Origin: Roseivivax marinus
Lineage (GTDB): Bacteria > Pseudomonadota > Alphaproteobacteria > Rhodobacterales > Rhodobacteraceae
Assembly (NCBI RefSeq): GCF_900109705.1
Contig: NZ_FOAI01000002.1
Coordinates: 186,001-250,000, forward strand
Direction of reading: 5' to 3'
DNA length: 64,000 bases
Both the position numbers and the translations under genes were made by a program. The notes under the pieces are model-generated. The model worked only from the letters and a program-made list of their open reading frames with translations. It ran no database searches and had not been told where the DNA came from. Below are positions 51,908-63,503 of the stretch, one piece after another. The number at the start of each line of letters is the position of its first letter. The first letter of the stretch is position 1.

Positions 51908-52687
51908 TCAGACGGTGCGCTCGACCATGGTCTTTTTGATCTCTGCGATGGCCTTGGCCGGGTTCAGACCCTTCGGACAGGTCTTGGCGCAGTTCATGAT
52001 CGTGTGGCAGCGATACAGCTTGAACGGATCCTCGAGGTCGTCCAGCCGCTCGCCCGTTGCCTCGTCGCGGCTGTCGATGATCCAGCGATAGGCATGAAGC
52101 AGCGCGGCGGGCCCGAGATAACGGTCACCGTTCCACCAGTAGGACGGGCACGCGGTCGAGCAGCAAGCGCACATCACGCATTCGTAGAGGCCATCGAGCT
52201 TCTCGCGGTCCTCGATGGACTGCTTCCACTCCTTCGCCGGCCGCGGCGTCTCGGTTTCCAGCCAGGGGTGGATCGAGGCGTGCTGCGCGTAGAAGTGCGT
52301 GAGGTCGGGGATGAGGTCCTTGACCACCGGCATGTGCGGCAGCGGGTAGATCTTCACGTCGCCCTTGATCTCGTCCATGCCGTAGATGCAGGCGAGCGTG
52401 TTGATGCCGTCGATGTTCATGGCACACGAGCCGCAGATGCCCTCGCGGCACGACCGGCGGAAGGTCAGCGTCGGGTCGATCTCGTTCTTGATCTTGATAA
52501 GCGCATCCAGAACCATCGGCCCGCATGTGTCCATGTCGACGAAGTAGGTGTCGACGCGGGGGTTCTCGCCGTCGTCCGGCGACCAGCGGTAGACCTGGAA
52601 CTTGCGCAGGTTCTTCGCGCCCTCCGGCTTGGGCCACGTCTTGCCGGTGCGCATTTGCGAATTCTTGGGCAGGGTCAGTTGGACCAT
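51908..52687 (-). CDS. sdhB: Succinate dehydrogenase iron-sulphur subunit
   Basis: A 259-residue SdhB that carries three Fe-S clusters of complex II. The [2Fe-2S] cysteines are in [18 protein letters not shown] near residue 80. The [4Fe-4S] and [3Fe-4S] cysteines are in [18 protein letters not shown] near residue 170 and [15 protein letters not shown] near residue 235. It passes electrons from SdhA FAD to ubiquinone. The ATG at 52687 is chosen because it directly follows GGGAGG; the frame to 52771 would run into the preceding gene. A lipoprotein gene separates it from sdhA. Confidence 0.97.
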
Positions 52688-52688
52688 A

Positions 52689-53012
52689 TCAGCCTCCCGT
52701 TCGGAGAAGGGCCGGCAGCCCTTCGGCTGCCAGACAGGTAAGCGTTTCCGGGCGTTGGACAATCTCTGCAACGATTTGCGCGGAGGAGGCCGTGGGCCCG
52801 GTGACCGAGTCGGCGGCGAGCGCGTAGATCTGCTGCGCGCTCGCGTTGTCGATGACGCAGCCGATGGCCGGCTCGACGGGGACGCCGGGATAACGCTCGA
52901 GCACGATCCGGTTCACCGTCGAGCGCGCGGCGTTCCGCGCGATCTGGTCCTGCGTCTGCGCCGTGCAGGCGCCGACGAGGAGCAGGGTAAGGCACGCCGC
53001 TTCGAGCCGCAT
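52689..53012 (-). CDS. Small predicted lipoprotein inside the sdh operon
   Basis: A 107-residue protein with a lipoprotein signal: [20 protein letters not shown], lipobox LVGAC with acylated Cys at residue 16. The rest has two Cys (IGCVIDN and LTCLAAEG) that could form a disulphide in the periplasm. I do not recognise the family. It starts at the ATG that overlaps the sdhA stop by one base (TGATG) and its stop is 1 bp from the sdhB ATG, so it is translated in the operon. A role in complex II assembly is only suggested by position. Confidence 0.75.
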
Positions 53013-54817
53013 CAGAACGTCCGCGCCTTGGGGGCGATCCGCTCGAGCTCGATCCCGCCCTGCTGCTGCTCGGTCAGCGGGTCGGTGATGACGGGGCGGT
53101 AGGTGAGATCGACCTTGGTGTCGTGCACGTGCGCGATCGTGTGCACACGCCACGCGTCGTCGTCCCGGTCGGGATGATCCTCGTGCGCGTGGGCGCCGCG
53201 GCTTTCCTTGCGGGCCTCGGCCCCCACGATGGTCGCCAGCGCGTTCGGCATGAGGTTCGTCAGTTCGAGGGTCTCCATCAGGTCGGAGTTCCACACGAGG
53301 CTGCGGTCGGTCACCTTGATGTCGTCGAGCTTCGCCGCGACAGCGCCCATCTTCTCGACACCTTCGGCCATGGTCTTGGCGGTGCGGAACACGGCCGCAT
53401 CCTCCTGCATGGTCTTCTGCATCTCGAGGCGCAGTTCCGCGGTGGGCACATTGCCCGAGGCATGGCGCAGGCTGTCGAAGCGATCGAGCGCCTTGTCCAC
53501 CTGGGCGATGTCCACCGTGCGCGGACGTGCGGCCCGGTCGATGGCCTCGGAGGCCCGGATTGCCGCGGCCCGGCCGAACACCACGAGGTCGATCAGCGAG
53601 TTGGAGCCGAGACGGTTCGCCCCGTGCACCGACGCGCACCCGGCCTCGCCCACGGCCATCAGGCCCGGCACGATGCGGTTGGGCTCGTCCTGGGTCGGGT
53701 TCAGAACCTCGCCCCAGTAGTTCGTCGGGATACCGCCCATGTTGTAGTGCACTGTCGGAAGGACCGGAATCGGCTCCTTCGTGACATCGACGCCGGCGAA
53801 GATGCGCGCCGATTCCGAGATACCCGGCAGGCGCAGCTGCAGCGCCTCCTTGGGGAGGTGCGACAGGTTCAGGTGGATGTGATCACCGTGCTCGCCGACG
53901 CCCCGGCCTTCGCGGATCTCCATGGTCATGGAACGCGAGACGTAGTCGCGCGGCGCGAGGTCCTTGTAGGTGGGCGCATAGCGCTCCATGAACCGCTCGC
54001 CCTCGGAGTTGGTGAGGTAGCCGCCTTCGCCCCGCGCGCCTTCCGTGATGAGGCAGCCCGCGCCGTAGATGCCGGTCGGGTGGAACTGCACGAATTCCAT
54101 GTCCTGAAGCGGCAGGCCCGCACGCGCCACCATGCCGCCGCCGTCACCCGTGCAGGTGTGTGCGGAGGTGGCCGAGAAATAGGCCCGGCCGTAGCCGCCG
54201 GTGGCCAGCACCACCGTCTTGGCGTTGAAGACGTGGATGGTGCCGTCGTCGAGCTTCCAGCACACGACACCGGTGCAGGCGCCGTCCTCGCTCATCATCA
54301 GGTCGATGGCGAAGTACTCGATGTAGAACTCGGCGTTGTTCTTCAGCGACTGACCGTAGAGCGTGTGCAGGATCGCGTGGCCGGTCCGGTCCGCGGCGGC
54401 GCAGGTGCGCTGCACCGGGGGACCCTCACCGAACTCGGTGGTGTGGCCGCCGAACGGGCGCTGGTAGATCTTGCCTTCCTCGGTGCGCGAGAACGGCACG
54501 CCGTAATGCTCGAGCTCGTAGACCGCCTCGGGGGCGTGCCGCGCGAGGTATTCCATCGCGTCGGTGTCGCCCAGCCAGTCCGACCCCTTCACGGTGTCGT
54601 ACATGTGCCACTGCCAGTGGTCCGGGCCCATGTTCGACAGCGAAGCGGCGATGCCGCCCTGCGCCGCCACCGTGTGCGAGCGGGTCGGGAAGACCTTGGT
54701 CACGCAGGCGGTCTTGAGCCCCTGCTCGGCCATGCCGAGCGTCGCGCGAAGGCCGGAACCCCCGGCGCCCACCACCACGACGTCGTAGTCATGCGTCTCG
54801 TAGTCGTATGCTGCCAT
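53012..54817 (-). CDS. sdhA: Succinate dehydrogenase flavoprotein subunit
   Basis: A 601-residue SdhA that oxidises succinate to fumarate. FAD binding is in [18 protein letters not shown] near residues 12-29. The covalent-FAD His is in [14 protein letters not shown] near residue 47. The substrate-binding block [25 protein letters not shown] and [19 protein letters not shown] are invariant. The C-terminal [18 protein letters not shown] is also typical. It starts at ATG 54817, 15 bp after sdhD. Confidence 0.98.
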
Positions 54818-54832: not shown

Positions 54833-55204
54833 TCAGAGCGCCAGCCGCACGACGGCATAGATGCCGAACGCCGCGGCGGCGTAGGAAATGCAGGTCATCA
54901 GGAGGATGAGGATCTTCTCGGCCAGCCCGTGAACGTAGTCCTCGATCAGCACCTGGACGCCGTCGGCGAAGTGGAACCAGCTGACAAGGATCGTCAGTGC
55001 GGCCACCACGGCCGGGAACGGACGGGCGTAGAAGGCTGTGACCTCCTCGTAGCTCGAACCCAGGATCGGCCCGAACGTGAAGATGAACAGCGGGATGAGG
55101 AAGAACAGCGCGACGGACTGCACGCGGGTGCGCCAGAAGTGCTGGGTGCCGGACTTCGCGCTGCCGAGGCCGGTGGCGCGCTTGCGGTCGGTAAGAAAGG
55201 CCAT
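54833..55204 (-). CDS. sdhD: Succinate dehydrogenase membrane anchor subunit
   Basis: A 123-residue anchor with three membrane helices (about 30-50, 63-85, 95-120). The haem/quinone residues are in SWFHFADGVQVLIEDYVHG: the His and the Asp-Tyr pair are the family signature. With SdhC it anchors complex II in the inner membrane and binds haem b. It begins 12 bp after sdhC. Confidence 0.93.
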   Translation of the reverse strand: MAFLTDRKRATGLGSAKSGTQHFWRTRVQSVALFFLIPLFIFTFGPILGSSYEEVTAFYARPFPAVVAALTILVSWFHFADGVQVLIEDYVHGLAEKILILLMTCISYAAAAFGIYAVVRLAL

Positions 55205-55216
55205 GTGCGCGCTCCT

Positions 55217-55600
55217 TCAGACGATGAGGGCAGTAAGGACGGTGAGGACGGCGGCGCCGATCAGGCAGGCCCAGCCGAGCTTCTCGGCGAACTCGATTTC
55301 CATGCCCCAGGCGGTGTCCCAGACGAGGTGACGCACGCCCGCGAGGAAATGGTACCAGAGGCCCAGAAGCGACAGGAACATTACGATGTCGCCGAACCAG
55401 CTGGTGATGAAGCCGTTCGCCGTCTCGAACGCCTCGGGGCCGACCGAGGCCGCCACGAACCACCACACGATCATCAGCATCGCCACGATCAGCGCATTGC
55501 CGGTGATACGGGTCAGGATCGAGGTGATCGAGGTCAGTTGCGGGCGATAGACCTGGAGGTGGGGTGAGAGCGGGCGATTGCCGCGGTTCACGTCTGCCAT
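55217..55600 (-). CDS. sdhC: Succinate dehydrogenase cytochrome b556 subunit
   Basis: A 127-residue SdhC. The start NRGNRPLSPHLQVYRPQLTS followed by ITSILTRITGNAL is the conserved opening, and the haem-binding His lies in YHFLAGVRHLVWD near residue 85. Three membrane helices are visible. It is the first gene of sdhC-sdhD-sdhA-lipoprotein-sdhB. AAGGACG is the ribosome site, and a large dyad operator-like element lies 116-148 bp upstream of the ATG. Confidence 0.95.
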   Translation of the reverse strand: MADVNRGNRPLSPHLQVYRPQLTSITSILTRITGNALIVAMLMIVWWFVAASVGPEAFETANGFITSWFGDIVMFLSLLGLWYHFLAGVRHLVWDTAWGMEIEFAEKLGWACLIGAAVLTVLTALIV

Positions 55601-55715
55601 TGTGGACGTCCTTTCGCTTCCCTTGGCTGCGTTCTAATCGTTTTTGACGCGGTGTCACGGACCGACCGCTTGCAAGGGCGCGGTTTTTTGGCGCATTCGG
55701 GTCGATCCCGGCCTT

Positions 55716-55748
55716 GCGTGATCACACGGCAGCCACCTGTGATCACGC
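55716..55748 (-). promoter_or_regulatory. Operator-like double GTGATCAC element upstream of sdhC
   Basis: GCGTGATCACA and TGTGATCACGC form a perfect 11-bp inverted repeat with an 11-bp spacer. Each arm itself contains the palindrome GTGATCAC (55718-55725 and 55739-55746), with start-to-start distance 21 bp. The nearer box ends 117 bp before the sdhC ATG. The same two-box arrangement, also 21 bp apart, precedes sucC. Confidence 0.7.
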
Positions 55749-55762
55749 TGTTCGCGCTACCA

Positions 55763-56173
55763 TCAGACCAGCGACAGCACGGGGCCGAGAATCGCGAGAC
55801 CGCAGATTCCGGCGACCGTGCGCCACGGTGTGCGCGGCCCCACGCGCCTCTCCATCCCGTGCAGGACAAGGGTTGCCGTGCCGCAGCTCAGCCCCGTCAC
55901 CAGGGCCACGCCGAACAGCGCGAGCGACGCGCCCTGCCCGTGCGCCAGCAGCGCCAGAACCGCGATGCCCACGGCCGAAGCCGCCAGCGCGCCCGCCAGA
56001 ACCGTGTAGATCGCCCGCATCAGCGTGCGCAGCCCGTCGCTTTGCGGGGCATCCAGCGCCTCGAGCAGTTGCGCGTGGTAGCCCACCGGCACCGGTCCGG
56101 TCACGTAGATCGCCGCCAGCCGCAGCAGCCACGCGGCGGACAGGAGCAAAAGCGCGGTGGCAACCAGGGACAT
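55763..56173 (-). CDS. Unrecognised four-helix membrane protein
   Basis: A 136-residue protein with four hydrophobic segments (about 4-24, 50-72, 77-96 and 112-134). Polar segments are short: VPVGYHAQLLEALDAPQSDG between helices 1 and 2 and HGMERRVGPRTPWRT between 3 and 4. I do not recognise a family. It ends 163 bp before sdhC and starts 4 bp after the mesaconyl-CoA hydratase stop, so it belongs to the mch transcript. Confidence 0.7.
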   Translation of the reverse strand: MSLVATALLLLSAAWLLRLAAIYVTGPVPVGYHAQLLEALDAPQSDGLRTLMRAIYTVLAGALAASAVGIAVLALLAHGQGASLALFGVALVTGLSCGTATLVLHGMERRVGPRTPWRTVAGICGLAILGPVLSLV

Positions 56174-56177
56174 CCGC

Positions 56178-57230
56178 TCAGACCGGCATCAGGGCCCAGT
56201 AATCGAGGTCGAGCAGGACGCCGGGCAGGTACTTTCCGTCGTCGCCCTTCAGGTCCCCGACGCCGCCGTCCTTGGTGGCCACCAGCCGCAGGCGGATTGC
56301 GCCGACCCCGGGGCGGGCCGTCTCGGCGGTGTCCAGCACCTCGGACCACGCGCGCACGGTGTCGCCCGAGAAGGCGGGGTTGGCGTGCGCGCCGCCGTTC
56401 AGACCGACGATCATCTGTGCGTTGGCGAGCCCGTTGAACGACAGCGCGCGGGCCATCGAAATGACGTGACCGCCGTAGATCAGCCGCTTGCCATCCTCGC
56501 GCATGGTGCCGTCGAAATGGGTCTTGGAGGTGTTCTGCCAGAGCCGCGTCGCCATCATGTGCTCGGCTTCCTCGAGCGTCACGCCGTCCACATGGTCGAT
56601 GATCTCGCCCACCTGGTAGTCGCCGAGGCGATGCGGCTCTCCGGCAAGGCTGAAATCATAGTCGGCAAAGGTCAGCTCCGGCGGCACCGCGAGGTCGGAG
56701 GGGGCCAGCGCGCCCTTCAGTTCGGGGACCACGGTCTCGGGCGCCGGCGATCCCTCGTCGCGCTTCTTGACCATCACCCATCGCACGTACTCGATCACCA
56801 CCGCGTCGTTCTGGTCGAGCCCGCGGGTGCGGACCCAGACCACGCCGGTCTTGCCGTTGGAGTTCTGCTTGAGGCCAATCACTTCGGATTCCGAGCGCAG
56901 CGTATCGCCCGGGCGCGCCGGCCGACGCCACAGGCCCTCGGCATAGCCGAGATTCGCGCGGGCGTTCAGCGACACATCGGGCACGGTCTTGCCGAAGACC
57001 ACGTGGAACGCCAGCAGGTCGTCCAGCGGCGCCGCGCCCAGCCCGCAGGCCTGCGCGAAGAGATCCGAAGAGTGCAGCGCGTGCCGGGCCGGGTAGAGCG
57101 CGTGGTAGAGCGCCCGCTCGCCCGAGCCCACGGTGCGCGGCACGCCGTGCAGGATCACTTCCCCGACTGTGTAGTCCTCGAAGAACCGGCCCGGATTGGT
57201 TTTCGACGTGGCGCGCGGCGCGTCGGTCAT
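56178..57230 (-). CDS. mch: Mesaconyl-CoA hydratase (MaoC-like)
   Basis: A 350-residue two-hotdog-domain MaoC-like enzyme. It matches the mesaconyl-CoA hydratase of the ethylmalonyl-CoA pathway, which hydrates mesaconyl-CoA to beta-methylmalyl-CoA. The N-terminal FFEDYTVGEVILHGVPRTVG, GYAEGLWRRPARPGDTL and the C-terminal half with YGGHVISMARALSFNGLANA are visible; DLFAQACGLGAAPLDDLLAFHVVFGKT holds the catalytic region. The ATG at 57230 overlaps the DUF1737 stop by one base; a GTG at 57233 is less likely. The malyl-CoA thioesterase is nearby. Confidence 0.92.
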   Translation of the reverse strand: MTDAPRATSKTNPGRFFEDYTVGEVILHGVPRTVGSGERALYHALYPARHALHSSDLFAQACGLGAAPLDDLLAFHVVFGKTVPDVSLNARANLGYAEGLWRRPARPGDTLRSESEVIGLKQNSNGKTGVVWVRTRGLDQNDAVVIEYVRWVMVKKRDEGSPAPETVVPELKGALAPSDLAVPPELTFADYDFSLAGEPHRLGDYQVGEIIDHVDGVTLEEAEHMMATRLWQNTSKTHFDGTMREDGKRLIYGGHVISMARALSFNGLANAQMIVGLNGGAHANPAFSGDTVRAWSEVLDTAETARPGVGAIRLRLVATKDGGVGDLKGDDGKYLPGVLLDLDYWALMPV

Positions 57231-57433
57231 CACTGCTCTCCCAGCTTGAGATCGGGGGAATAGGTGCCGTCGACCTCCTTGGTGACGGCCTGCCCGCAGC
57301 GCATGACGCCATTGGCCTCGTCATAGGCATAGGTGGGATCGCCGTAGAGGTCCCACCCCTTCGACAGCGCCTCGGACACCTTGTGGCAGAAGGCCGATGT
57401 GTCGTCGGCGGACAGGAAACGGAAGAGTTTCAT
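57230..57433 (-). CDS. DUF1737 small protein
   Basis: A 67-residue DUF1737 protein: KLFRFLSADDTSAFCHKVSE, then ALSKGWDLYGDPTYAYD and MRCGQAVTKEV. The family is a short domain of unknown function, and this full copy lies between the mch and nnrU-type genes. Its stop overlaps the mch ATG by one base (TGATG), indicating translational coupling. Recurrence beside mch in Rhodobacteraceae would suggest a function in the ethylmalonyl-CoA pathway. Confidence 0.85.
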   Translation of the reverse strand: MKLFRFLSADDTSAFCHKVSEALSKGWDLYGDPTYAYDEANGVMRCGQAVTKEVDGTYSPDLKLGEQ

Positions 57434-57437
57434 CGAC

Positions 57438-57983
57438 TTACCCCGGGAATGGCCAGACGCCGAGCCAGGCGTGGATGCCGGTAATGATCGCGAACATCAC
57501 CAGCGTGATGATGACGAGAACCACGTCTTTCTTGGCGGGGCCCGGCTCGGGGCGGTCCCAGGTCGTGGTCTTGTTGATGACGATGACCTCGGCCACGGCC
57601 CAGGCCAGCATGCCGCCAAACAGGATGATCGAGGCAAGATCGCCGTTCACCAGCAGGTGCGCCACGGCCCATATCTTGACCGCCGTCAGCTGCGGGTGGC
57701 GCATCTTGCCGCGCAGGCGGCCGGTGGTGGCGCTCATGCCATAGACGAAGACCGCCAGGATCATCAGCAGGTTGTTGAGGTGGGTCAGGAACGCGGGCGG
57801 CGTCCAGACCGGCACGAAGGCTGCCCCGCGATAGCCTATGATGATGAGCACGAGGCCCAACAGCACCCCCGCGGCGACGGCGCCCTTTCCGGCATTGCCC
57901 ATGCGGGCGCGGGCGTCGGGCGCGAGGCGTGGAAACAGGTGCGCGCCCACCCAGAGGGCGAGGCCGAGAATGAGAAGGATCAT
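57438..57983 (-). CDS. NnrU family membrane protein
   Basis: A 181-residue inner-membrane protein of the NnrU family with five or six helices. HLFPRLAPDARARMGNAGKG, LTHLNNLLMILAVFVYGMSA and RHPQLTAVKIWAVAHLLVNGD are family blocks. NnrU proteins were named for a denitrification gene cluster, but members are widespread and some resemble methyltransferase-like membrane enzymes. The position between malyl-CoA thioesterase and DUF1737/mch is metabolic, so the denitrification link is doubtful here. It starts 3 bp after the malyl-CoA thioesterase stop. Confidence 0.88.
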   Translation of the reverse strand: MILLILGLALWVGAHLFPRLAPDARARMGNAGKGAVAAGVLLGLVLIIIGYRGAAFVPVWTPPAFLTHLNNLLMILAVFVYGMSATTGRLRGKMRHPQLTAVKIWAVAHLLVNGDLASIILFGGMLAWAVAEVIVINKTTTWDRPEPGPAKKDVVLVIITLVMFAIITGIHAWLGVWPFPG

Positions 57984-57986
57984 GGC

Positions 57987-58841
57987 TTACTCCGCTGCGA
58001 TCTGCCCTATCGCCTCGGCTTGTGCCAGAATCCGCCGTGCGGTGTCCACGTGAAGGTTCTCGACGATCTTGCCGTCGACGACCGCCACCCCCTGCCCGTC
58101 GGCCTGCGCGGCCTCGTAGGCGGCGATCTGGCGGCGGGCGAGGTCGATCTCGTCCTCCGAGGGGCCGAACTCGGCGTTCGCGGTGTCGATCTGCGCGGGA
58201 TGGATCAGCGTCTTGCCGTCGAAGCCCATGTCCCGCCCCTGCCGGCACTCGGCCGCGAGGCCCGCCTCGTCCTTGAAGGCGTTGTAGACGCCATCGACGA
58301 TGACCTTGCCGTGGGCCTTGGCCGCGATGACGCAATGGCCGAGGCCGGTCATGACCGCCACGCGGTCGGGCGTGGCGCGCCCGTTGAGTTCTTTCACGAG
58401 GTCGTTGGTGCCCATGACCATGCCGCCGAGCTGGCGGTGCGCGGCGATGGCCCGGGCCTCGAGCATCCCTAGCGGGGTCTCCATCATCGCCCAGACTGCG
58501 CGGTCGGTGCCGATCAGCCCGGCAAGCCGGTCGATCTGCTCTGGCCCTTCGACCTTGGGCAGCAGGACTGCGTCGCAAGCCATGTCCGCCACGGCGCGGG
58601 CGTCCGCGGTGCCCCAGATCGTATCGAGTCCGTTGATCCGCACGATGGTGAAGCGGTGACCGAAGCCGCCCTCGGCCAGCGCCGAGGCCAGCGTCTCGCG
58701 CGCGCTCTCTTTTTCTTCGGGCGACACCGCATCCTCGAGATCGAAGATGATTGCGTCCACCGGCAGGCTCTTGGCCTTCTCGATGGCGCGCACCTTGGAG
58801 CCGGGAATATAGAGGACGGAGCGGAACGGCTGGACGGTCAT
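57987..58841 (-). CDS. (3S)-Malyl-CoA thioesterase / CitE-like (Mcl2)
   Basis: A 284-residue CitE-like TIM-barrel enzyme. The start RSVLYIPGSKVRAIEKAKSL, Glu-Asp in IIFDLEDAVSPEEK near residue 35, Arg in TIVRINGLDT and ALLPKVEG are the Mg2+ and CoA motifs. At under 290 residues it fits Mcl2 of Rhodobacter, the (3S)-malyl-CoA thioesterase, better than the longer malyl-CoA lyase Mcl1 (about 318 residues). It would give malate plus CoA and so finish the ethylmalonyl-CoA route. It is first in the run to nnrU, DUF1737 and mch. Confidence 0.88.
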   Translation of the reverse strand: MTVQPFRSVLYIPGSKVRAIEKAKSLPVDAIIFDLEDAVSPEEKESARETLASALAEGGFGHRFTIVRINGLDTIWGTADARAVADMACDAVLLPKVEGPEQIDRLAGLIGTDRAVWAMMETPLGMLEARAIAAHRQLGGMVMGTNDLVKELNGRATPDRVAVMTGLGHCVIAAKAHGKVIVDGVYNAFKDEAGLAAECRQGRDMGFDGKTLIHPAQIDTANAEFGPSEDEIDLARRQIAAYEAAQADGQGVAVVDGKIVENLHVDTARRILAQAEAIGQIAAE

Positions 58842-59004
58842 CGGCACACCTCTGGGACGGGTCGGATCAAGTGCGAAACAAAGTTGCGCGATAAACGACA
58901 TTTCGTGCCGAAAAATTCAAGCGCAAAATGCCGCAACGCAGCGGAATCGTATGCGATGGTGCACGGACGGCAGCGCTGCGCGAGATTTCCGCGCGCCCTC
59001 CCCC

Positions 59005-59760
59005 CTAGCCGAGCGCATCCCAGACGAGCTTGAGCCCCGTTACGGTGAGCAGCACGTAGGTGATCGCGAAGAAGGTGCGCTCGGACACGCGCTCGTGGCC
59101 GACCACGCCCAGCCAGGTGCCGAGGAACGCGAAGGGCGACAGCGCAATTCCGAGCAGCAGCGTCTCGCGCGTGAAGATGCCCATGCCGGCATAGAACCCG
59201 GCCTTCGACAGGTTCACTGCCCAGAATGTCAGCACCGTCGTCGCCTGGAATGTCGTCTTGTCGAGTTTCCGCCCCAGCAGGTAGACCGCAGCCGCAGGCC
59301 CGCCCGCGTGGCTGACGAAGCTGGTGAACCCGACGGCAAAGCCGCAGATTGCGCCGGCCGCGCGGCCTAGCGGGCGTTGACCCAGTGTCACCCACCCGCG
59401 CGAAAGCGCCAGTCGCCATCCCACGAATCCAAGGGCCACCGCACCGATCAGCAGACGCACCGCATCGGGGGACGCCCAGTCGTAGAACGCCGCGCCGAGC
59501 GCCACGCCCGGCAAGGCAGCGAGGATCAGCAGCCGCGCGTCGCGCCAGTTCCAGCGCCGCCAGTAGGCGCGCAGACTGGTCGCGTCGATCAGCATCAGCA
59601 GCGGCAGCATCACCCCGAGCGCGGCACCGGGCTCGAGCACGAGGGCGAGAATCGTCGCGCTGGCGAAGGCCGCGCCCGAGCCGAATCCGGCCTTGGAGAT
59701 ACCGGCGAAGATCACCGCCGGCACACCAAGGGCAAACACGCTCCAGCTTAGTACGTCCAT
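59005..59760 (-). CDS. Sulfite exporter TauE/SafE (TSUP) family permease
   Basis: A 251-residue inner-membrane protein with about eight helices. The first TSUP repeat has VPAVIFAGISKAGFGSGAAF near residue 15-35 and the second FAVGFTSFVSHAGGPAAAVY near residue 130-150. Members export sulfite, sulfoacetate or other organic anions, but the cargo here is unknown. The ATG at 59760 is taken; the frame to 59802 has an unlikely prefix. It is divergent from mdh. Confidence 0.9.
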   Translation of the reverse strand: MDVLSWSVFALGVPAVIFAGISKAGFGSGAAFASATILALVLEPGAALGVMLPLLMLIDATSLRAYWRRWNWRDARLLILAALPGVALGAAFYDWASPDAVRLLIGAVALGFVGWRLALSRGWVTLGQRPLGRAAGAICGFAVGFTSFVSHAGGPAAAVYLLGRKLDKTTFQATTVLTFWAVNLSKAGFYAGMGIFTRETLLLGIALSPFAFLGTWLGVVGHERVSERTFFAITYVLLTVTGLKLVWDALG

Positions 59761-59762
59761 GA

Positions 59763-60908
<1,146 letters not shown>

Positions 60909-60936
60909 TCGCGAATTCGTCTCCCGGACGACATAC

Positions 60937-60965
60937 GCCCCGGCCCGCCAAGGCCGGGGCGTTTT
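60937..60965 (+). terminator. mdh terminator
   Basis: GCCCCGGCC pairs with GGCCGGGGC around CGCCAA, followed by GTTTT. It lies 28 bp after mdh and also separates it from the convergent glycosyltransferase. Confidence 0.88.
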
Positions 60966-60980
60966 CGTGTGCGGCGTGGT

Positions 60981-62048
60981 TCAGCCCGGAATGTCGCGGA
61001 TCAGCCCGTCAAGCGAGCGCGGCCCCTCGTAGCGCCGCGTGCCCTGCCAGACCGGCGACCGGGCCAGCACGTCGCCACGCTCCAGCATCTTGCGGATGCC
61101 CCGGGCGCCCTTGTTGTGCTGGCCGCGCGCCGCCGTGTATTCCAGACCCGCCTGCCCGCGCGTGAACTTGTAGTGCAGGAAGGCCGCGATGCTCTCGGAC
61201 ACGGGCAGAGCGCGGTCGACCTTGTGCGCCCCGCCGTTGAACGCCATCCCTGCCTGCCAGCGGATCAGCCCGAGCTTGGTCTGGTTGGCGTTGGCCCGCA
61301 CCGTGCGGTAGGTCAGCGCCCGTGCCGCGAGGTTGCGCGCCCGCTCGGCCGGGCCGGGGTTGATCGGCCGGTCCAGCCTGTTCAGCCGCTCGATCGCGGC
61401 AGCCTTCCAGCCCGGCAATCCCTCCATGTGGTCGGTGAAGAGCCGGTGCCGCAGCCCGCCCGAGAACGCCACCGGCGGGGTCGGCCAGCGCTTTCGCTCC
61501 CGCCCCGAGGTGGGTCGCATGAAATAGCCCGCGGGCACCGCGGCGGGGCCATCGAACAGCGGGAAGGTCTCGGTGAGGGTGCGATCGTCGGCAGGGTCGA
61601 AGACGTGTTCCGCCAGCGGCCGGTCGGCATACATGTCTATCATCAAGGTGGCGACGGCCTCGGCCCCCTCGGCCTCGAGCGCGGCGCAGTAGGCGTCGAG
61701 AGACCGCGCCTCCATGCCCGGGAAGACGAAATGCTCGTCCAGGTCCGGGGCCAAGCACCAGCGCCCGTCACAGTAGGTGTCGAGCAGGTCCGACCGCCAC
61801 TGCGCCTTGTCGTCGCGATAGTTCGAGCCCGCGCGCGGCGTGAACACGGTGACGTCCGGCGCGGCGGCCAGGATCTCGGCCGTGCCGTCGGTCGAGCGGT
61901 CATCGACGATAAGGAAGGCGGGCCTGGTGATCGCGCGGTAATGGTCGAGAAACGCGCCGAGGATGTTCGCCTCGTTGTGCGCCAGCGCGATGATCGGGAC
62001 CCCGTCCTCGGGGCGGCGGTCTGGCCCGGTGCGATCCAGTTTCTTCAT
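60981..62048 (-). CDS. Family 2-like glycosyltransferase
   Basis: A 355-residue protein with a glycosyltransferase-A core. [20 protein letters not shown] near residue 17, [15 protein letters not shown] near residue 46 (nucleotide-sugar Asp), and [13 protein letters not shown] near residue 100 (DxD-like metal site) are visible. The C-terminal half ([20 protein letters not shown]) is longer than minimal GT2 domains and resembles DUF4922/GT92-like 'glycosyl transferase family 2' proteins of roseobacters. The acceptor is unknown. The ATG at 62048 has GAGGC 8 nt upstream. It is convergent with mdh. Confidence 0.85.
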
Positions 62049-62166
62049 GCGCGGCGCCTCGTGTACGGACAGGTCTGCGCCCGCTTTGCCCGCCCCGTGC
62101 GCCTCGATCAAGGCCCCCGGCAGCGCCCGCCGCGGCCGATTCCGCATCGGTTCCACCTTTGCCCGG

Positions 62167-62198
62167 CTTGTGATCACAAGGTCCACACGCGTGACCAC
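62167..62198 (+). promoter_or_regulatory. Operator-like double GTGAYCAC element upstream of sucC
   Basis: CTTGTGATCACAAG (62167-62180) is a perfect 14-bp palindrome with core GTGATCAC at 62170-62177; GTGACCAC follows at 62191-62198. The two boxes are 21 bp apart start to start, as in the element upstream of sdhC. The element ends 112 bp before the sucC ATG. Confidence 0.7.
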
Positions 62199-62309: not shown

Positions 62310-63503
62310 ATGAACATCCACGAGTATCAGGCAAAGGCGCTCCTGCGCAGCTACGGCGCGCCGGTGTCGGACGGCCGCGTGGTCCTCCGCGCCGAGGAGG
62401 CCAAGACGGCCGCAGGCGCGCTTGACGGACCGATGTGGGTCGTGAAGGCCCAGATCCACGCCGGCGGCCGCGGCAAGGGCTCCTTCAAGGAGTCGGACGC
62501 GGGTGAGAAAGGCGGCGTGCGCCTCGCCAAGTCGGTCGAGGAAGCGGCCGAGGAAGCCAAGAAGATGCTCGGCAAGACGCTGGTGACCCACCAGACCGGT
62601 CCGGCCGGCAAGCAGGTCAACCGGATCTACATCGAGGACGGCTCGGACATCGAGCGCGAGCTCTACCTCGCGCTGCTGGTCGATCGCGTCACCAGCCGGG
62701 TGTCCTTCGTCTGCTCGACCGAGGGCGGCATGGACATCGAGGAAGTCGCCGCGTCGACCCCCGAGAAGATCCTGTCGTTCAGCGTCGACCCGGCCACCGG
62801 CTACCAGGCGTTCCACGGCCGCCGCATCGCGTTCTCGCTCGGCCTCGAGGGCGCGCAGGTCAAGCAGTGCGTCAAGCTGATGGGCATCCTCTACAACGCG
62901 TTCATCGAGCGCGACATGGAGATGCTCGAGATCAACCCGCTGATCGTCACCGACAAGGGTGACCTCAAGGTGCTCGACGCCAAGCTCGGCTTCGACGGCA
63001 ACGCGCTCTATCGCCAGTCCGACGTGGCCGAACTGCGCGACGAGACCGAGGAAGACTCCAAGGAGCTCGAAGCGTCCAAGTACGACCTCAACTACATCGC
63101 GCTCGACGGCGAGATCGGCTGCATGGTCAACGGCGCGGGCCTCGCCATGGCGACGATGGACATCATCAAGCTCTACGGCGCCGAGCCCGCGAACTTCCTC
63201 GACGTCGGCGGCGGCGCCACGAAGGAGAAGGTGACAGAGGCGTTCAAGATCATCACGTCCGACAAGAACGTGAAGGGCATCCTCGTGAACATCTTCGGCG
63301 GCATCATGCGCTGCGACGTCATCGCCGAGGGCGTGATCGCCGCGGTCAAGGAAGTCGGCCTTCAGGTTCCGCTGGTCGTCCGCCTCGAGGGCACCAACGT
63401 CGAGAAGGGCAAGGAGCTCATCAACAACTCCGGTCTGAACGTGATCGCCGCCGACAGCCTGTCGGACGGGGCACAGAAGATCGTGAAGGAAGTGAAGGGC
63501 TGA
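62310..63503 (+). CDS. sucC: Succinyl-CoA synthetase beta subunit
   Basis: A 397-residue SucC. The start [20 protein letters not shown] and the ATP-grasp fold ([20 protein letters not shown] near residue 45; [10 protein letters not shown] near residue 210) are standard. The C-terminal block [18 protein letters not shown] appears as [18 protein letters not shown], with the phosphate-linked [16 protein letters not shown]. With SucD it makes ATP from succinyl-CoA. The ATG at 62310 follows GGACAGGA; the frame open to 60969 is an antisense artefact. sucD probably lies beyond the right edge. Confidence 0.98.

Follow-up and report, generated by a model that had tools for sequence, protein, structure and literature searches.

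The genes sdhC and sucC of Roseivivax marinus, both located in the stretch of 64,000 nucleotides (nt) analysed here (the window; contig NZ_FOAI01000002.1, positions 186,001-250,000), are each preceded by a pair of GTGAYCAC boxes separated by 13 nt (N13). The pair is real, strongly conserved and regulatory, and earlier publications on AkgR, a regulator of Rhodobacter sphaeroides, already account for its main point. The regulator of both pairs is very probably AkgR, a protein with GntR and FCD domains (FadR/FCD type). We have high confidence in the explanation as a whole, namely that the pairs are predicted AkgR operators activating sdhC and sucC, and that a single box serves the self-repression of akgR.

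The probable operator pairs and their conservation

The sdhC pair, on the reverse strand, has the form GTGATCAC-N13-GTGATCAC and spans positions 55718-55746, with the promoter-distal box at 55739-55746 and the promoter-proximal box at 55718-55725. The sucC pair, on the forward strand, is GTGATCAC-N13-GTGACCAC at 62170-62198; its promoter-distal box (62170-62177) lies within the 10-mer TGTGATCACA, and its promoter-proximal box (62191-62198) is one step from the consensus. Three of the four window boxes are thus exact copies of GTGATCAC, and the spacer centres of both pairs are G+C-rich. An earlier note on this DNA had placed the four boxes at the same positions, and re-reading shows these to be correct, as are the perfect 11-base-pair (bp) inverted repeat at sdhC (arms 55716-55726 and 55738-55748) and the start-to-start distance of 21 bp, or two helical turns, at both genes. 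Its figure of 112-117 bp from the end of the element to the start codon agrees with the 117 bp before the sdhC ATG (55600), but not with the sucC ATG (62310), for which the coordinates give 111 bp. The region upstream of mdh does lack the element, as the note said; the single further copy of GTGATCAC in the window, at 53879, sits inside sdhA.

A search of the whole genome (4,013,190 bp in 39 contigs) for exact matches to GTGAYCAC-N13-GTGAYCAC returned only the sdhC and sucC places. With up to two mismatches there are 45 strand matches to the pair pattern, compared to five for the pattern read backwards. This control is lenient, as CTAG replaces GATC, and we put the weight on the spacing test and on genomes lacking AkgR (see below). 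Many bacteria have few CTAG sites. Apart from the sites of the window itself, there are four pairs with one mismatch (L003-L006), all of which lie within long open reading frames (ORFs) by a crude test. Allowing any spacer of 0-30 nt between two GTGATCAC boxes, we found 63 places in 41 genomes of the family. Of these, 58 have N13, N12 and N28 account for two each, and one has N22. With 58 of 63 pairs at N13, the spacing itself must be selected. A chance origin of the pairs is ruled out by their rarity in the genome, their conservation in the family and the preference for N13. Nor is the motif equally frequent in coding DNA. Single boxes that differ from TGTGATCACA at no more than one position occur at 16 places in the genome; among the 15 that were inspected, four besides the known ones (L289, L291, L296 and L298) lie outside long ORFs by the same crude test.

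Of 394 family genomes (Rhodobacteraceae-type), 340 hold the exact pair, mostly twice in each, and it is nearly absent outside the family (2 of 285 genomes from the class); a match to the backward control was noticed in one family genome (G255). In 50 loci fetched around pairs we counted 46 distinct sites, of which 24 precede sucC, 21 precede sdhC and one precedes fumC, with 107-192 bp between pair and start codon. Loci L056 and L085 represent the same fumC site (L085:9294, genome G042), which was counted once; a second fumC pair was found in G324 (L314:1501). The orthologous sdhC and sucC promoters of Rhodobacteraceae therefore do carry the motif pair. Among relatives the boxes are nearly invariant, the outer flanks are T/A-rich (AAA after the promoter-proximal box at sucC) and the centre of the spacer is A/T-rich. 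In 19 genomes selected for odd pair counts, several extra pairs matched no query gene, and many were apparently inside long open frames.

Some unusual arrangements were also seen. Three genomes (G285, G135 and G191; L335, L336 and L337) have three GTGATCAC boxes in 21-bp steps before sucC. In G296 (L301:1501), a pair is found about 200 bp before a gene that resembles a thiolase or acetyl-CoA acetyltransferase by sequence. Of the two pairs outside the family, one (L125) lies in G+C-rich sequence that looks coding by eye. The other (L124, positions ~960-1020, in genome G539) consists of two N13-spaced GTGATCAC boxes, with a third that is similar by eye upstream of them, before a GntR gene. The product of this gene is roughly 30% identical to AkgR and seems to be a related regulator using the same operator grammar.

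The candidate regulator gene and its co-occurrence with the pair

The R. marinus genome contains 17 matches to the GntR domain. One of these, G000:C21:102592-103263 on the reverse strand, has GTGATCAC just before its ATG and encodes a protein of 224 amino acids, in which the GntR and FCD domains both score over curated cut-offs. The gene lies beyond the window, at a distance of 83 kb, and about 138 kb separate it from the sdhC pair. Only two exact copies of the 10-mer TGTGATCACA exist in the genome, one before this gene and one in the sucC pair, and copies with a single mismatch are present at both sdhC boxes. None of the other 16 matches has a box just before its assigned start. The boxes near L057 and L067 lie within the gene, and the box near L071 is GTGGTCAC, 220 bp upstream.

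We take RSP_0981 of R. sphaeroides to be AkgR. In the work of Imam et al. (mBio, 2015), AkgR reportedly activates genes of the tricarboxylic acid (TCA) cycle directly. According to excerpts of two papers, the GntR-family protein RSP_0981 has sucCD, sdh and 2-oxoglutarate dehydrogenase as predicted targets (PMC4344238), and AkgR is a GntR-family activator with GTGATCAC among its reported sites (PMC6365646). We infer from family, motif, targets and, weakly, synteny that the R. marinus gene is the orthologue of RSP_0981. As to synteny, the orthologue lies at most 17 kb from a pair in 10 of the 41 family genomes, as judged by eye, and the number RSP_0981 is close to those of the sdh genes, RSP_0974-6 (PMC4344238, in excerpt). 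A literature search for TGTGATCACA together with GntR gave no match. The earlier note had postulated a common regulator of complex II and succinyl-CoA synthetase, which is supported by the family-wide conservation, the co-occurrence with one GntR gene and the literature. It had left this regulator unnamed; we now name it, very probably, as AkgR, and the akgR promoter is a third place with the box, outside the window.

Co-occurrence was assessed with an orthologue threshold of E<=1e-70 and counts tallied by hand. An akgR orthologue was detected in 356 of the 394 family genomes. The exact pair is present in 330 of the 356 genomes with an orthologue and in 10 of the 38 without (Fisher p 7e-20). 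Restricting the comparison to 347 good genomes (>=90% complete, <=5% contaminated) gave 303 of 322 and 3 of 25, respectively (p 1e-20).

We then read the upstream regions of genomes lacking the exact pair, wherever the gene was found and the contig continued. All 26 genomes with an orthologue and no exact pair were covered, giving 16 sucC and 20 sdhC upstreams. Every one of the 16 sucC upstreams contains a pair, either with N12 (14) or with one mismatch (2), and 12 of the 20 sdhC upstreams contain one at up to two mismatches. A near-exact or N12 pair at sucC or sdhC is thus held by 20 of the 26 genomes; the six still without a pair are G061, G147, G155, G166, G201 and G322, among which only the sdhC upstream of G201 was readable. 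From the genomes with neither orthologue nor exact pair (24 of 28, leaving out G122, G157, G207 and G335), 20 sucC and 20 sdhC upstreams were read, none of which has a pair within two mismatches; the best candidate, with three mismatches, is in G017.

Promoter architecture

A simple sigma-70 scan found no promoter at the sdhC or sucC site. A putative -35-like hexamer of sdhC, GTGACA, lies at 55653-55658 on the reverse strand, 59 nt after the proximal box. The sdhC upstreams of relatives were examined using the 69 of 78 distinct sequences that have a pair in which neither box deviates by more than one mismatch, R. marinus included. GTGACW is present in 62 of the 69, compared to 2 of 69 when the sequence is reversed, and probably represents the -35 element. 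The offset between proximal box and GTGACW is 57-60 nt in 51 of the 62 sequences. The remaining 11 offsets (36, 47, 48, 48, 49, 68, 70, 70, 78, 79 and 80) lie near whole 10.5-bp turns away from this value (phase V-test at 10.5 bp, p 3e-5; the observed value was never attained in 200,000 random draws). Offsets that differ by whole turns suggest a face-dependent activator bound upstream of sdhC, which would have to face the polymerase. The core promoter of sucC is weakly defined: a motif obtained by expectation maximisation is found at an offset of 37-40 in 70 of 87 sequences and of 27-29 in nine. The helical-phase argument is therefore drawn from sdhC alone. By eye, the sdhC and sucC promoters are out of phase with each other.

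The akgR promoter has a different layout. Two sets of upstream regions were used, one of 30 loci (the best matches of 61 genomes) and one of 80 named loci, which are the closest relatives and overstate generality. An exact box was found upstream of akgR at 23 of the 30 loci and at 78 of the 80, compared to none in either set for the reversed control. Among the loci where the distance was measured, the box starts exactly 12 bp past a TTGACn hexamer in 19 of 22 from the first set and 74 of 77 from the second. A box between -35 and -10 occupies a repressor's place and suggests autorepression; going by this position, AkgR probably represses its own promoter through the single box.

A number of observations weigh against assigning the pairs to AkgR with this promoter geometry. 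GTGACW is missing from 7 of the 69 sdhC upstreams, and the 11 displaced offsets are few and mutually dependent. No exact box precedes akgR at seven of the 30 loci, two of which miss it by one mismatch. Eight of the 20 sdhC upstreams from genomes with an orthologue and no exact pair have no pair despite AkgR. None of the 80 named akgR loci (the best 80 of 588) has an exact pair within 10 kb, and R. sphaeroides is not among these 80. Ten genomes, mainly incomplete assemblies, have a pair and no orthologue. Their completeness is 100% for G114, 93% for G256, 91% for G019, 88% for G319 and 70-77% for the other six; one of these six, G033, has a relative (46%) at 8 kb from its pair. G114, G256 and G019 do not count among the incomplete assemblies; in G114, a genome of 3.1 Mb, two pairs are present and an AkgR orthologue was not found. 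Finally, common ancestry inflates the co-occurrence p-values. Against this last concern we can set several orthologue-less genomes that are as close to R. marinus by SucC as some genomes with an orthologue: SucC identity is 85% for both G048 and G167, which lack the orthologue, and 81% and 82% for G291 and G069, which have it.

The pair could be the operator of another GntR/FCD paralogue (such as L066) with GTGATCAC specificity, AkgR being a bystander. The specificity is evidently not confined to AkgR: the GntR gene preceded by an N13 pair in G539 shares about 30% identity with L066 and with AkgR, and a Pseudomonas GntR protein with 32% identity to AkgR has been proposed to use GTGATCAC (PMC6365646, in excerpt). 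However, the presence or absence of the pair follows the AkgR orthologue, and the other 16 GntR-domain genes have no box of their own at the start, which makes a paralogue improbable.

It is more improbable still that the inverted repeat acts in RNA, either terminating the gene that precedes sdhC or folding into an mRNA hairpin. The perfect 11-bp arms at sdhC do lie just past the stop codon of the upstream ORF, but terminator scans found none at either pair (two were located in other parts of the sdhC stretch, on the opposite strand), and no inverted repeat was reported for the sucC boxes. Each box is palindromic or nearly so by itself, so that pairing between boxes is a by-product. Moreover, the fixed N12/N13 spacing suits DNA binding, and promoter-like GTGACW hexamers are located downstream of the sdhC pairs. 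That the boxes are GATC methylation sites or some other general genome-wide signal is hardly credible: three of the four window boxes contain GATC, but pairs of the 8-mer are few per genome and have one main spacing, the conserved flanks extend beyond GATC, and none of the 40 upstreams from genomes without AkgR or exact pair holds a pair within two mismatches.

Two other candidates were rejected. CRP and FNR recognise motifs of the type TGTGA-N6-TCACA or TTGAT-N4-ATCAA. In the boxes described here, the GTGA and TCAC half-sites abut without a spacer, as judged by eye; the earlier note's remark that the spacing is not of the CRP type is consistent with AkgR. As for RedB, the portion of published text considered contains no GTGA/TCAC string and names suc and sdh as indirect targets.

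Genes served, proposed mechanism and known systems

The sdh genes are all on the reverse strand of the window. sdhC (55217-55600) encodes the cytochrome b556 subunit of succinate dehydrogenase, sdhD (54833-55204) the membrane anchor subunit and sdhA (53012-54817) the flavoprotein subunit; they match TIGR02970, TIGR02968 and TIGR01816, respectively, over cut-off. sdhB (51908-52771; start as in the ORF list) encodes the iron-sulfur subunit, with Fer2_3 and Fer4_17 domains. sucC (62310-63503, forward strand) encodes the succinate-CoA ligase beta subunit. Past sucC, on the same strand and beyond the window, follow sucD, sucA, sucB and lpd, with some small ORFs between them. An ORF at 60981-62048 on the reverse strand, divergent from sucC and without an NCBIfam match, separates mdh from sucC; in several relatives mdh precedes sucC on the same strand, with the operator pair between the two genes. 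The interval between sdhC and mdh (55763-58901, reverse strand) contains a small membrane-protein-like ORF and genes for a mesaconyl-CoA hydratase-like MaoC protein, NnrU and a CitE/HpcH-type lyase. The MaoC-like, NnrU and CitE/HpcH-type genes recur between sdhC and mdh in many 20-kb loci of relatives.

In the mechanism that we propose, each 8-bp palindrome would bind one AkgR dimer. Upstream of the sdhC and sucC promoters, two dimers placed 20-21 bp (two turns) apart would share one face of the DNA, and may activate both genes from there in a class I-like manner. sdhCDAB and sucCDAB-lpd would thereby rise and fall together. The sucC operator would serve the steps from 2-oxoglutarate to succinate, as one operator can do given that sucD, sucA, sucB and lpd lie downstream of sucC on the same strand, and the sdhC operator would serve the step to fumarate. 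AkgR would limit its own synthesis via the single box between -35 and -10 of akgR, and its inducer may be a TCA-cycle metabolite. We lean, by a modest degree, towards a still broader proposal, in which the whole family would share a dual-mode operator code: two dimers two turns apart would activate complex II and sucCDAB-lpd on a fixed helix face and a single -35/-10 box would repress akgR, resulting in self-limiting control of the 2-oxoglutarate-to-fumarate part of the cycle, to which some lineages would have added fumC.

What emerges is a very widely conserved double operator tied to a named regulator, with exact spacing, phase and a feedback box. Probable AkgR sites could be annotated in hundreds of genomes. 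In the literature searched, which consisted in part of excerpts and did not include the primary AkgR paper, we found no statement on the 20-21 bp pair spacing, the promoter phase or the akgR box.

Three described regulators invite comparison. One is RSP_1663, a central carbon regulator that we take to be CceR. It resembles the present system in its predicted action on overlapping genes including mdh and sdh, but belongs to the LacI family and has the predicted motif GTT-N6-8-AAC, not GTGATCAC (PMC4344238, in excerpt). The second is the PS417_07240-type GntR protein of Pseudomonas simiae, involved in deoxyribonate catabolism, which is 32% identical to AkgR and has a conserved upstream GTGATCAC palindrome; unlike the pairs described here, this is a single box at -47 to -40 relative to the gene's own start codon, serving a different pathway in a distant organism (PMC6365646, in excerpt). 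The closest likeness is to AkgR of R. sphaeroides, a GntR-family protein with the same GTGATCAC motif (PMC6365646) and, as RSP_0981, the same predicted targets, sdh, sucCD and 2-oxoglutarate dehydrogenase (PMC4344238). Compared to AkgR as described in these excerpts, sdhC and sucC of R. marinus bear two boxes 21 bp apart (20 bp in some relatives) and akgR bears one promoter box. This is no new kind of system; a further genome, and some new architecture, are added to one already known.

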